In this document: positions 15,068-30,252 of the stretch, piece after piece
Position numbering within the stretch: position 1 is the stretch's first letter
How the letters are laid out: each line of letters opens with the position of its first letter
Assembly (NCBI GenBank): GCA_016875015.1
Contig: VGSJ01000014.1
Coordinates: 1-47,476 of the forward strand
Direction: 5' to 3'
DNA: 47,476 nucleotides
DNA from: Deltaproteobacteria bacterium
Lineage (GTDB): Bacteria; Desulfobacterota; Desulfobaccia; Desulfobaccales; 0-14-0-80-60-11
Notes under the pieces: model-generated
Told to the model about the DNA's origin: nothing
Seen by the model: only the letters and a program-made list of their open reading frames with translations
Databases searched by the model: none
Made by a program: the position numbers and the translations under genes

Positions 15068-15721
15068 CTATACCGCGGCCACGCCGTTGACGCCGCCGTT
15101 AACCAAGCGCACCACGGCCATGTCGGGGAAATAGTCGATGACGTTGAGGCAGCCGTAGTTCTGGTCCAGGCGGAACAGGTGGTCCAGGGGCAGGCCCAGG
15201 GCCTCGCTGAGGATGACCCGGTTGACCCCGGCGTGGGCCACGATGATGAAGGCCTCCTGAAGATGCTGATTGATGAGGTCGTTCAGCCGGGGCAGGACCC
15301 GGGAACTCAGGTCCAGGAGGCTTTCGCCCCCGGGAATGCGGAAGGTGGCGAGGTCCCGGAAGCGGGCCTCGAGTTCGGCGGGGTAGCGTTCGGCGATCTC
15401 GGTGAAGCTCAGGCCTTCCCAGGCCCCGAAGTGGATCTCCCGGAACTCCGGGATTATTTGTAGAGGCGCCTCCCGCCCCCGTCTGATAATCTCTGCCCCG
15501 GTCAAGGCCCGGCTGAGGTTCGAGGCATAGACCCCCGCCAGGGGCACGCCCGCAAGCTGCGCCGCCAGGTCTTCGAACTGGCGCACCCCGTTATCCGACA
15601 AGCCGATGTCGTTGTTGCCGTGGTACCGGTCGGTATGGCCGTCGGCCACCTGGCCGTGGCGCACCAGGTAGACGCGGGTGGGGGTCAGGGAACCCTTGAT
15701 GCGTTGAGCTTGGAGACGCAT
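15068..15721 (-). CDS. Histidine phosphatase family protein (phosphoglycerate mutase / CobC-like)
   Basis: TRVYLVRHGQVADG (RHG motif), YASNLSRALTGAEII, FREIHFGAWEGLSFTEI, AHAGVNRVIL. Confidence 0.9.
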   Translation of the reverse strand: MRLQAQRIKGSLTPTRVYLVRHGQVADGHTDRYHGNNDIGLSDNGVRQFEDLAAQLAGVPLAGVYASNLSRALTGAEIIRRGREAPLQIIPEFREIHFGAWEGLSFTEIAERYPAELEARFRDLATFRIPGGESLLDLSSRVLPRLNDLINQHLQEAFIIVAHAGVNRVILSEALGLPLDHLFRLDQNYGCLNVIDYFPDMAVVRLVNGGVNGVAAV

Positions 15722-16308
15722 TATGGACTTAAATATTTGCGGCCAAAAAAATTATCATGGGGAAGATTTCTCATCAACCTTATTGCAATTGAGTATATTG
15801 TTTCAGGATCATAATTCTGAGTAAACCTTTTCTCCCAGCATCTCCCATGAGCAAGCCAGTCTCGTAAGGGCAACAGGTCCATTAGATTTTTAATTGATTT
15901 TTCTAATTCTCTGCTATCTGTTATATTTTTCCAAGTCTTAAGTATATCGTCCCCAAATCTTGACCACTCGCCTTTCTTTTTATTAGGAGACAATTGATAT
16001 AATTTCCGACTAATTCCATCACTCTTTTTACCCGTAAGACGGATTTGATGATCAATTCTAAAGGCAGCCTCTATTGCACTGATTAGACTTAACATTGTAG
16101 CATATTTCAATTCTTTCATGCCATTGCTGAATTGGTCAGCAATTTCTTTAGGAGATTTGAACATAAATTCAATAGGTAGAGCTTTGCCACTTCTAACCTT
16201 TTCTTTTATTTTTTGCCTTGAATCTAATAATGCACTCTCAGAATCTCTATACCATTTCCACACATTATTAACTGCGGCTGCATGTTTATACGAGGCTGAC
16301 ACTTTCAT
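15721..16308 (-). CDS. Putative HEPN-like protein (RX4H motif)
   Basis: AT-rich, 195 aa, helical; LSLISAIEAAFRIDHQIR ... LMDLLPLRDWLAHGRCWEKR, where R-D-W-L-A-H matches RX4H. ATG overlaps the upstream gene stop as ATGA. Confidence 0.5.
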   Translation of the reverse strand: MKVSASYKHAAAVNNVWKWYRDSESALLDSRQKIKEKVRSGKALPIEFMFKSPKEIADQFSNGMKELKYATMLSLISAIEAAFRIDHQIRLTGKKSDGISRKLYQLSPNKKKGEWSRFGDDILKTWKNITDSRELEKSIKNLMDLLPLRDWLAHGRCWEKRFTQNYDPETIYSIAIRLMRNLPHDNFFGRKYLSP

Positions 16309-16853
16309 TTGCTAATCACTTTCATTAACGCATTATAAAAGACCTCTCTAGTTAATACTCGATATTTTCTAGGCCTTCCTTTTTCGGTTGGTAAAATCCA
16401 TTCAGTATCCATTTGATTGTAGTTAGGTGGTTTGGGTTGTTTCTTTGACTTTAATATTCCTTCTTCACCCATATACACCCTGATTTGGGGGCGATGCCCC
16501 TTTTGTTCCAATATGATCATTACAGATCCTTCATCACCAATCAAATCGACTCTTCCTAGTCCTCCTATAATAATAGTACCTATAGGAATCAACTTAACTA
16601 CTTCAGTATGAAGATTAATTTTAAGTTGAGGTGCCTCATAACTACCTAACCGCTCCTCATAAACCTCTATAGTATCTTCTTCAATATATAAGTCCTCTGG
16701 AACTAATGGTGCTAACCATTCTTTTACATCGTTGTATAGGTGATTAATTTTGCCAAGCCACCAGGTTTTCCTTGTCTCCCAATCCACAGCTTGCTTTAGT
16801 TGATCATCCTTCCGTTTCTTCTCACGCAGGAAATTTTCCAAGGTTTCTGCCAT
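16305..16853 (-). CDS. Conserved hypothetical protein, partner gene of the HEPN-like ORF
   Basis: 182 aa, AT-rich, SD aaggag upstream of the start; 4-nt ATGA overlap with the next ORF. Confidence 0.6.
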   Translation of the reverse strand: MAETLENFLREKKRKDDQLKQAVDWETRKTWWLGKINHLYNDVKEWLAPLVPEDLYIEEDTIEVYEERLGSYEAPQLKINLHTEVVKLIPIGTIIIGGLGRVDLIGDEGSVMIILEQKGHRPQIRVYMGEEGILKSKKQPKPPNYNQMDTEWILPTEKGRPRKYRVLTREVFYNALMKVISK

Positions 16854-16915
16854 AGTTGATCTCCTTACTTTATCCGTAATTTTTCTACCGTGGATACTCT
16901 AAATTTGACATCCTG

Positions 16916-16933
16916 ATGTTTATATTCAAACAT
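16916..16933. promoter_or_regulatory. Candidate operator inverted repeat ATGTTT-N6-AAACAT
   Basis: Perfect 6-bp arms about 60 nt upstream of the 16853 start. Confidence 0.3.
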
Positions 16934-16978: not shown

Positions 16979-18196
16979 CTACCCCTCCATAACCGCATTG
17001 TTAGGCACCACCACGATACCGTCTTCGGTGAGGTGGAAGCGGGAGGCGTCCCATTGGGGGTCGTAGCCGATGGAAAAGCCCGGCGGCACCCGCACCCCGT
17101 CTTCGATAATCGCCCGCCTCACCTTGGCCCGGGGGCCGATGACCACCCCGTCCCAGAGGATGGCGTCTTCCACCGATGCGTCCGGCCCCACCCTGACCCC
17201 GGGGGAGAGGATGGACCGGGTCACGGTCCCTTCGATGATGCAGCCCGAGGCGATGAGGGAATCCTCCACCGTCACCGGCATCCCCCCGGTAATAAATTTG
17301 CTGGGGGGCAGGAGCTGGGGCCGGGAGCGCATGGGCCAGTCCGGATCGAATAACTCAAAGGTGGGCGCGGCGCCCAGGAGATCCTGGTGGGCCTTGAAGT
17401 ACGCGTCCAACAGCCCGATATCCCGCCAGTACCGGATAGCCCCGCTGGCCGGGTCCTGAAAGTTGTAGGCATAGACCTTTTTCCGCTCCACCATCTGGGG
17501 GATGATGTCCCCGCCGAAATCGTGCTTGCTGGTCTTGTTTTTGGCGTCCTTGATGACCTCCTCCACCAGGACCCCGGCGTTGAAGATGTAAACCCCCATG
17601 GACACCAGGGAGAAGTCGGGGTTGTCGGGCAATCCCGGCGGGTCCTGGGGTTTTTCCAGGAAATTCTCCACCTCGCCGGCCCCGTTCACCTTGAGAATGC
17701 CGAAGGAACTGCCCTCCGCCCGGGGCACCATGACCGCGGCTACCGTCAGGTCCGCCCCCTGGCGCAGGTGAAATGCCAGCATCTCCCGGTAATTCAGCTT
17801 GTAGACGTGATCTCCGGACAGGATCAACACATGCCGGGGCCGCTCGGCCTCCAGGAGGTTGAGGTTCTGGAAAATGGAGTCCGCGGTGCCGCGGTACCAG
17901 CGGCTCACCATGATCTGCTGGGGCGGCATGGAGTAGATGAACTCGTCCAGGTCAGGGTGCATGATGTCCCAGGCCCGGCGCAGGTGCTGATCCAGGGAAA
18001 AACTGCCGTACTGGGTGAGCACGTAGATGCGGCGGATGCCCGAATTGAGGCAGTTGGACAGGGTGAAGTCGATGATCCGGTAAAGGCTCCCGAAGGTGAT
18101 GGCCGGTTTGGCCTTGTCCCGGGTCAGGGGAAAGAGGCGCTCGCCCTTGCCGCCGGCCATGATGATGGTGGTAAGATTTTTCATCGAGTCCGTCAT
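16979..18196 (-). CDS. glgC: Glucose-1-phosphate adenylyltransferase
   Basis: TTIIMAGGKGERLFPLTRDKAKPAITFGSLYRIIDFTLSNCLNSGIRRIYVLTQYGSFSLDQHL; VLILSGDHVYKLNYREML; C-terminal beta-helix. Confidence 0.96.
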   Translation of the reverse strand: MTDSMKNLTTIIMAGGKGERLFPLTRDKAKPAITFGSLYRIIDFTLSNCLNSGIRRIYVLTQYGSFSLDQHLRRAWDIMHPDLDEFIYSMPPQQIMVSRWYRGTADSIFQNLNLLEAERPRHVLILSGDHVYKLNYREMLAFHLRQGADLTVAAVMVPRAEGSSFGILKVNGAGEVENFLEKPQDPPGLPDNPDFSLVSMGVYIFNAGVLVEEVIKDAKNKTSKHDFGGDIIPQMVERKKVYAYNFQDPASGAIRYWRDIGLLDAYFKAHQDLLGAAPTFELFDPDWPMRSRPQLLPPSKFITGGMPVTVEDSLIASGCIIEGTVTRSILSPGVRVGPDASVEDAILWDGVVIGPRAKVRRAIIEDGVRVPPGFSIGYDPQWDASRFHLTEDGIVVVPNNAVMEG

Positions 18197-29517: not shown

Positions 29518-30252
29518 ATGAAAACCATCGCCATCATCCCCGCCCGCTTCGGCTCCAGCCGCTTTCCGGGCAAACCCCTGGCGCTTATCCTGGGGAAACC
29601 CCTGATCCAGTGGGTTTACGAGCAGGCGCTTAAGGTTAAGGATTTGGACGGGGTCTGGGTGGCCACCGATGATGCGCGCATCAAGGAGTGTGTGGAGTCC
29701 TTCGGAGGCCGGGCCCTCATGACCCGGGAGGACCACCCCTCGGGGAGCGACCGCCTGGCCGAAGCCGCCGGGCTGCTCAACCTGGCGCCCGAGGACATCG
29801 TCATCAATATCCAGGGGGACCAGCCGGTCTTTCCCCCGGACCTCATCTCCCAATTGTCCGCGGTCCTCGCCCGGGACCCCGGGGTGGTCATGGTCACCCC
29901 GGTCAAACGCCTGAGCGACCCCGCGGCCGCGGCCAACCCCAACACCGTCAAGGTGGTGTTCGACCGGGCCGGGCGCGCCCTCTACTTCTCCCGCAGCCCC
30001 CTGCCCTTCTGGCGGGACGGCGGCCACCCCTCTTATTATCGGCACATCGGCATCTACGCCTACCGGGTGCAGTTTCTCAAGGAGTTCGTGCACCTTTCCG
30101 TCGGGCGCTGGGAAGCGGCCGAGAAGCTGGAGCAGCTCCGGGGCCTGGAGCACGGCTTTCCCATTCACATCGTGGAAACGGACGGGGACACCCGGGAGGT
30201 GGATAGCCCGGACGACGCCCGGCAGGTGGAAGAGTTTCTCCGGCGGCCATAG
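29518..30252 (+). CDS. kdsB: 3-deoxy-manno-octulosonate cytidylyltransferase
   Basis: AIIPARFGSSRFPGKPLALILGKPLIQWVYEQA, DHPSGSDRLAEAA, INIQGDQPVFPP, HIGIYAYRVQFL. Confidence 0.96.
   Translation: MKTIAIIPARFGSSRFPGKPLALILGKPLIQWVYEQALKVKDLDGVWVATDDARIKECVESFGGRALMTREDHPSGSDRLAEAAGLLNLAPEDIVINIQGDQPVFPPDLISQLSAVLARDPGVVMVTPVKRLSDPAAAANPNTVKVVFDRAGRALYFSRSPLPFWRDGGHPSYYRHIGIYAYRVQFLKEFVHLSVGRWEAAEKLEQLRGLEHGFPIHIVETDGDTREVDSPDDARQVEEFLRRP

Follow-up and report, generated by a model that had tools for sequence, protein, structure and literature searches.

Two small genes of AT-rich composition lie between glgC and a histidine-phosphatase-type gene in the genome of a Deltaproteobacteria bacterium (contig VGSJ01000014.1), and the locus raises the question of what this pair does and how it came to lie there. 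A reading of the sequence alone had proposed a toxin-antitoxin (TA) or defence module, in which a HEPN-like protein with an R-X4-H motif is combined with a partner that could differ from the usual one. HEPN RNases belong to the most frequent effectors of bacterial conflict, and the best known dedicated HEPN antitoxin is the MNT nucleotidyltransferase. Plain coordinates below refer to the whole stretch of DNA that was analysed (47,476 nucleotides; the window).

The cassette and its insertion site

Both overlapping reading frames of the sequence-only reading were confirmed. The first gene of the operon (positions 16305-16853, minus strand) codes for a protein of 182 amino acids, here called the partner, and the second gene (15721-16308, minus strand) for the HEPN-like protein of 195 amino acids; the two genes overlap as ATGA. 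A good ribosome-binding site, the Shine-Dalgarno-like AGGAG (16861-16865, minus strand), is located 7 nt before the ATG of the partner gene. The AT-richness was also borne out, the GC fraction of the cassette being 0.365 as compared with 0.596 in the rest of the window. No sigma-70 promoter of consensus quality was found on the minus strand. The inverted repeat ATGTTT-ATATTC-AAACAT (16916-16933), to which attention had been drawn, does lie 63 nt before the ATG of the partner gene, but it does not stand out as a regulatory site: of random upstream regions matched in composition, 35% had an inverted repeat at least as good, and in the upstream regions of relatives the mean inverted-repeat arm (5.7) was barely above the null value (5.3). 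A role of the repeat as operator is thus not supported, the repeat being at chance level and showing no clear family-wide enrichment. At 29560-29604 a 24-bp unit occurs twice in tandem; no other tandem repeat was found in the window.

In relatives, glgC and the phosphatase gene are adjacent, and in the window the cassette sits exactly between the two (glgC, 16979-18196; phosphatase gene, 15068-15721). The gap between them is approximately 16 nt in a genome of the same genus (G166, locus L170), and in other members of the family, which have no cassette (L182, L183, L184 and L186), the stop codon of glgC overlaps the start codon of the phosphatase gene as TAATG or TGATG. One edge of the insertion in the window has the same form, the stop codon of the HEPN gene overlapping the phosphatase start as TAATG (15719-15723, minus strand). 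Because the two flanking genes adjoin or overlap in relatives, and because of the TAATG junction in the window, the preferred reading of the cassette is a clean gain of 1.25 kb where two genes meet. Transposon terminal repeats around the cassette were rejected, since its two ends had no direct repeat of at least 7 nt in common and the inverted matches were A/T-rich and just 7-8 nt long. The pair was missing from every genome sampled within the same genus and family.

Distribution and joint inheritance of the pair

The window HEPN protein as sole query led to two pairs in a second genome of the window's phylum, to one in a third genome, and to 18 Klebsiella/Raoultella plasmid records with the pair, several of which are ColRNAI plasmids of 3.7-4.7 kb with the pair as their largest cargo. 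An alignment of five HEPN sequences, used as the next query, yielded 11 IMG/VR contigs and 80 genome loci. In 93 of the 94 resolvable loci found via the HEPN gene (about 88 of the 94 are non-redundant), the partner gene immediately precedes the HEPN gene on the same strand, and the overlaps between the two genes are short, mostly 8, 14 or 4 nt. The expected co-occurrence of the pair across genomes was thus observed, and it extends across phyla. No HEPN-partner fusions were present among the loci.

The loci are spread over about a dozen phyla, viral contigs and the Klebsiella plasmids. The pair occurred in 5 of 395 genomes of the window's phylum and in 18 of 399 genomes of Pseudomonadota. On the HEPN tree the phyla are interleaved (20 changes against a minimum of 12), a pattern that is consistent with transfer but is not proof of it. 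Scans of viral contigs with the window proteins as sole queries gave no relative, and E. coli genomes and phage records queried with close relatives gave no match. The immediate neighbours of the pair are mostly ordinary genes, and a minority match defence models (DarG, AbiP2, Drt4, PtuB, PD-T4-6 and type I specificity subunits); in this survey of immediate neighbours the pair was not concentrated in defence islands.

In three of the Klebsiella records (L005, L006 and L233) the pair consists of WP_064279389 or WP_044525166 together with WP_040173808, annotated just as hypothetical proteins. The Klebsiella pair is carried by tiny ColRNAI plasmids and by larger IncFIB plasmids. Since the two hypothetical genes that lie downstream of the pair on the small plasmid are found on the IncFIB plasmids too, the arrangement suggests that a small ColRNAI plasmid was integrated into the latter.

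Whole genomes were also searched with the partner alignment alone, a search free of bias towards the active site of the HEPN protein. It yielded 34 further loci, two of which were cut by contig ends. Among the remaining 32, there was an intact adjacent downstream gene in 21, a HEPN remnant in two (L134 and L142) and no adjacent HEPN gene in nine. Because of these nine relatives, the partner may have other roles. Three partner genes (L147:2478-2996, L160:1474-2079 and L141:1986-2426) stand beside ordinary genes with no HEPN neighbour, and could be either orphan antitoxins or proteins with another function. At L137:1107-2453, in Candidatus Thiomargarita nelsonii (G420), the partner domain follows an N-terminal region of approximately 280 amino acids with KAQKPE/RAQKPE repeats, and no HEPN gene adjoins this fused partner; the same genome has ten partner matches altogether.

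The pairwise distances of the two proteins are correlated (Spearman 0.66; the best of 2000 permutations gave 0.25). Six loci combine an intact partner gene with a broken HEPN gene (L031, L050, L058, L063, L097 and L134), and two combine an intact HEPN gene with a broken or absent partner (L026 and L065), the counts being small and including breaks in metagenome bins some of which may be assembly errors. At L134:1760-2612 an intact partner gene is followed by the N-terminal half of the HEPN gene, from which the active site is gone. This imbalance would fit a TA module in which the toxin is lost before the antitoxin.

The two protein families

The LRDWLAHGR segment of the HEPN-like protein, singled out in the sequence-only reading, was found as described, the codons of R149-D-W-L-A-H154 being at 15847-15864 (minus strand). 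R-X4-H is present in all 76 aligned HEPN members, but the scan with the five-sequence alignment demanded R..W..AHG words and this conservation is therefore not independent evidence. The sample obtained with the partner alone is free of this bias: all 21 intact downstream genes code for R-X4-H near the C-terminus, in forms such as RHWLAH, RNWLAH, RNDLAH, RDWVAH, RSDIVH, RNEIAH, RNNFAH and RNHCAH, whereas such a motif was found at the same place in 11% of 231 neighbour proteins of similar size. The conservation of R and H thus held. Four of the 21 (L140, L148, L161 and L164) are HEPN-like proteins that have kept RX4H but are too diverged for the HEPN profile, and for this reason several HEPN subfamilies appear to share this type of partner.

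The AlphaFold2 model of the HEPN-like protein (pLDDT 88.7) is all helical, and its helix 133-153 has R149 and H154 at the C-terminal end. The model is compatible with a HEPN fold, but the similarity to solved HEPN toxins was not significant (E about 1): in a Foldseek search of the PDB, chains of HepT, Csm6 and Csx1 were among the top matches with E values of 0.96 or worse and TM scores not exceeding about 0.41. In a profile-profile comparison with RiboL-PSP HEPN proteins gathered in this analysis, a local P of 8.5e-4 and a global P of 5.3e-6 were obtained, with R and H in register, as compared with 0.16-0.36 for reversed-profile nulls; HepT proteins aligned at the same motif without reaching significance. 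The Pfam families matched by more than one HEPN member were exclusively two HEPN families. On the strength of the motif and of this profile similarity, the second protein is assigned to the HEPN proteins, its predicted nearest family being RiboL-PSP HEPN. The window protein itself belongs to no family in Pfam, NCBIfam, PADLOC or PHROGs, a weak similarity to RTasHEPN of PADLOC (E 0.008) being noted. Two conventional HepT-like HEPN genes (PF01934) are present elsewhere in the same genome (G000:C48:19297-19569 and G000:C95:515-799).

In the partner family, Y72, P90, G92, R101 and D103 are invariant among 75 aligned relatives, and E66, G70 and G100 are nearly so. The AlphaFold2 model (pLDDT 89.5) consists of two long helices, a seven-strand meander and a C-terminal helix. 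No family was found for the partner in Pfam, NCBIfam, PADLOC or PHROGs, and this confidently modelled fold had no match in the PDB or among viral folds. The absence of the MNT motif, noted before for the window protein, holds for the whole family (0 of 75); an MNT-type pairing was rejected and the earlier suggestion of a different pairing is supported. Two other assignments were tried and rejected. A PD-(D/E)XK nuclease (D103 and E118-x-K120 of the window protein) is at odds with the predicted strand meander and with the lack of conservation of the E, and for a PH-like fold all Foldseek matches were insignificant.

Function of the pair and comparison with known systems

The traits of type II TA modules found here are two small overlapping genes with the putative antitoxin gene first, joint inheritance, carriage by mobile elements and patchy distribution. 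Because the antitoxin gene comes first and the toxin gene overlaps it, and because the pair is mobile, is co-inherited and appears to lose its toxin first, the best explanation is a horizontally acquired type II-like TA module made up of a HEPN RNase toxin and a new, non-MNT antitoxin family, to which we assign a probability of roughly 0.7. The module is possibly used in abortive infection. The operon, the joint inheritance and the conservation of R and H all speak for the earlier proposal of a TA or defence module.

For RNase activity, toxicity, neutralization by binding and the trigger we infer the following. The first gene would code for an alpha/beta antitoxin of an unrecognised family, and the second, overlapping and probably translationally coupled, for a HEPN endoribonuclease toxin, which like HEPN toxins in general is probably dimeric and in which R149-X4-H154 would provide the catalytic residues. 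The partner would bind the HEPN protein and keep it inactive; the conserved glycine-rich P-x-G-T...G-x-x-G-R-V-D segment of the partner may mediate the contact. If the partner is lost or disabled, as by plasmid loss or phage infection, the freed HEPN protein would cleave RNA and arrest growth. RNA cleavage is the likely toxic act, because RX4H has an established role in HEPN RNases (PMC3710099, PMC7641770). Among modes of neutralization, direct binding is the simplest. More tentatively, and with somewhat less than even confidence, we suggest that the partner is a new antitoxin family, possibly with a new fold, which binds directly to, and so neutralizes, HEPN RNases of several widely different subfamilies.

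The main rival, which we regard as unlikely, is an abortive-infection pair with the partner as sensor or activator: on binding a phage product or nucleic acid, the partner would turn the HEPN RNase on, the HEPN protein alone being non-toxic. In defence, HEPN RNases often act as regulated effectors (PMC3710099, PMC13092281, PMC13405049), copies of the pair occur on viral contigs, some neighbours match defence models, and both the size and the degree of conservation of the partner are high for a simple antitoxin. Nevertheless, an antitoxin agrees better than a sensor with the partner-first order, with the tiny plasmids that have no larger cargo than the pair and with the partners that persist without an intact HEPN gene, and no strong concentration in defence islands was seen.

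A type VII-like enzymatic antitoxin, modifying the HEPN protein chemically as MntA modifies HepT, is improbable. The conserved E66, Y72, R101 and D103 could form an active or ligand site with the glycine-rich segment, and a Y stands three residues after the H in 69 of 76 HEPN members, but the window member has C at this position (157), HXY with Y at H+2 occurs in none of the 76, and GSX10DXD in none of the 75 partners. Since the HepT-type tyrosine and the nucleotidyltransferase motifs are missing, the enzymatic route appears less likely than direct binding. Most improbable of all is a non-toxic pair for host RNA processing with no role in conflict, with which the mostly ordinary neighbours would agree, but not the patchy presence (5/395 and 18/399), the carriage by plasmids and viral contigs, the interleaved phyla and the clean insertion.

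Several known systems can be compared with the pair. HepT/MntA (HEPN/MNT, type VII) is likewise a two-gene operon with the partner first and a HEPN-like second protein containing RX4H. It differs in that its partner has the GSX10DXD nucleotidyltransferase motif and its HEPN motif is RX4HXY, with the modifiable tyrosine, instead of RX4HGRY; the HEPN protein described here is also larger, and its profile similarity to HepT insignificant. The nearest families are RiboL-PSP HEPN (PF18735) and MAE_28990/MAE_18760 HEPN (PF18737), weakly matched by 5 and 3 of the 76 members, respectively (best E for PF18735, 2.5e-4), whereas the window protein matches neither Pfam model. Their described contexts, a fused L-PSP, ParB, a methylase and a ParA/Soj ATPase (PMC3710099), do not include the present partner. 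The predicted TA dyad of MAE_18760 HEPN and the ParA/Soj ATPase (PMC3710099) shares with our pair a HEPN toxin with an upstream non-MNT partner, but the partner described here matches no ATPase family. RTasHEPN is weakly similar to the window HEPN protein, but no reverse transcriptase gene lies beside the window pair, and in contrast to the type IX retron HEPN, which is without the canonical motif (PMC13405049), the motif is present here. In a literature search that covered largely open-access papers, neither the pair nor the protein accessions from Klebsiella were named in any paper found. Taken singly, the parts belong to known kinds, a HEPN RNase and a two-gene module, and it is the partner family and the pairing that are absent from the libraries and literature searched. 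If the TA reading is correct, a second widespread partner family would represent a new way to silence HEPN RNases, and many pairs of hypothetical proteins, including those on clinical Klebsiella plasmids, would be explained.
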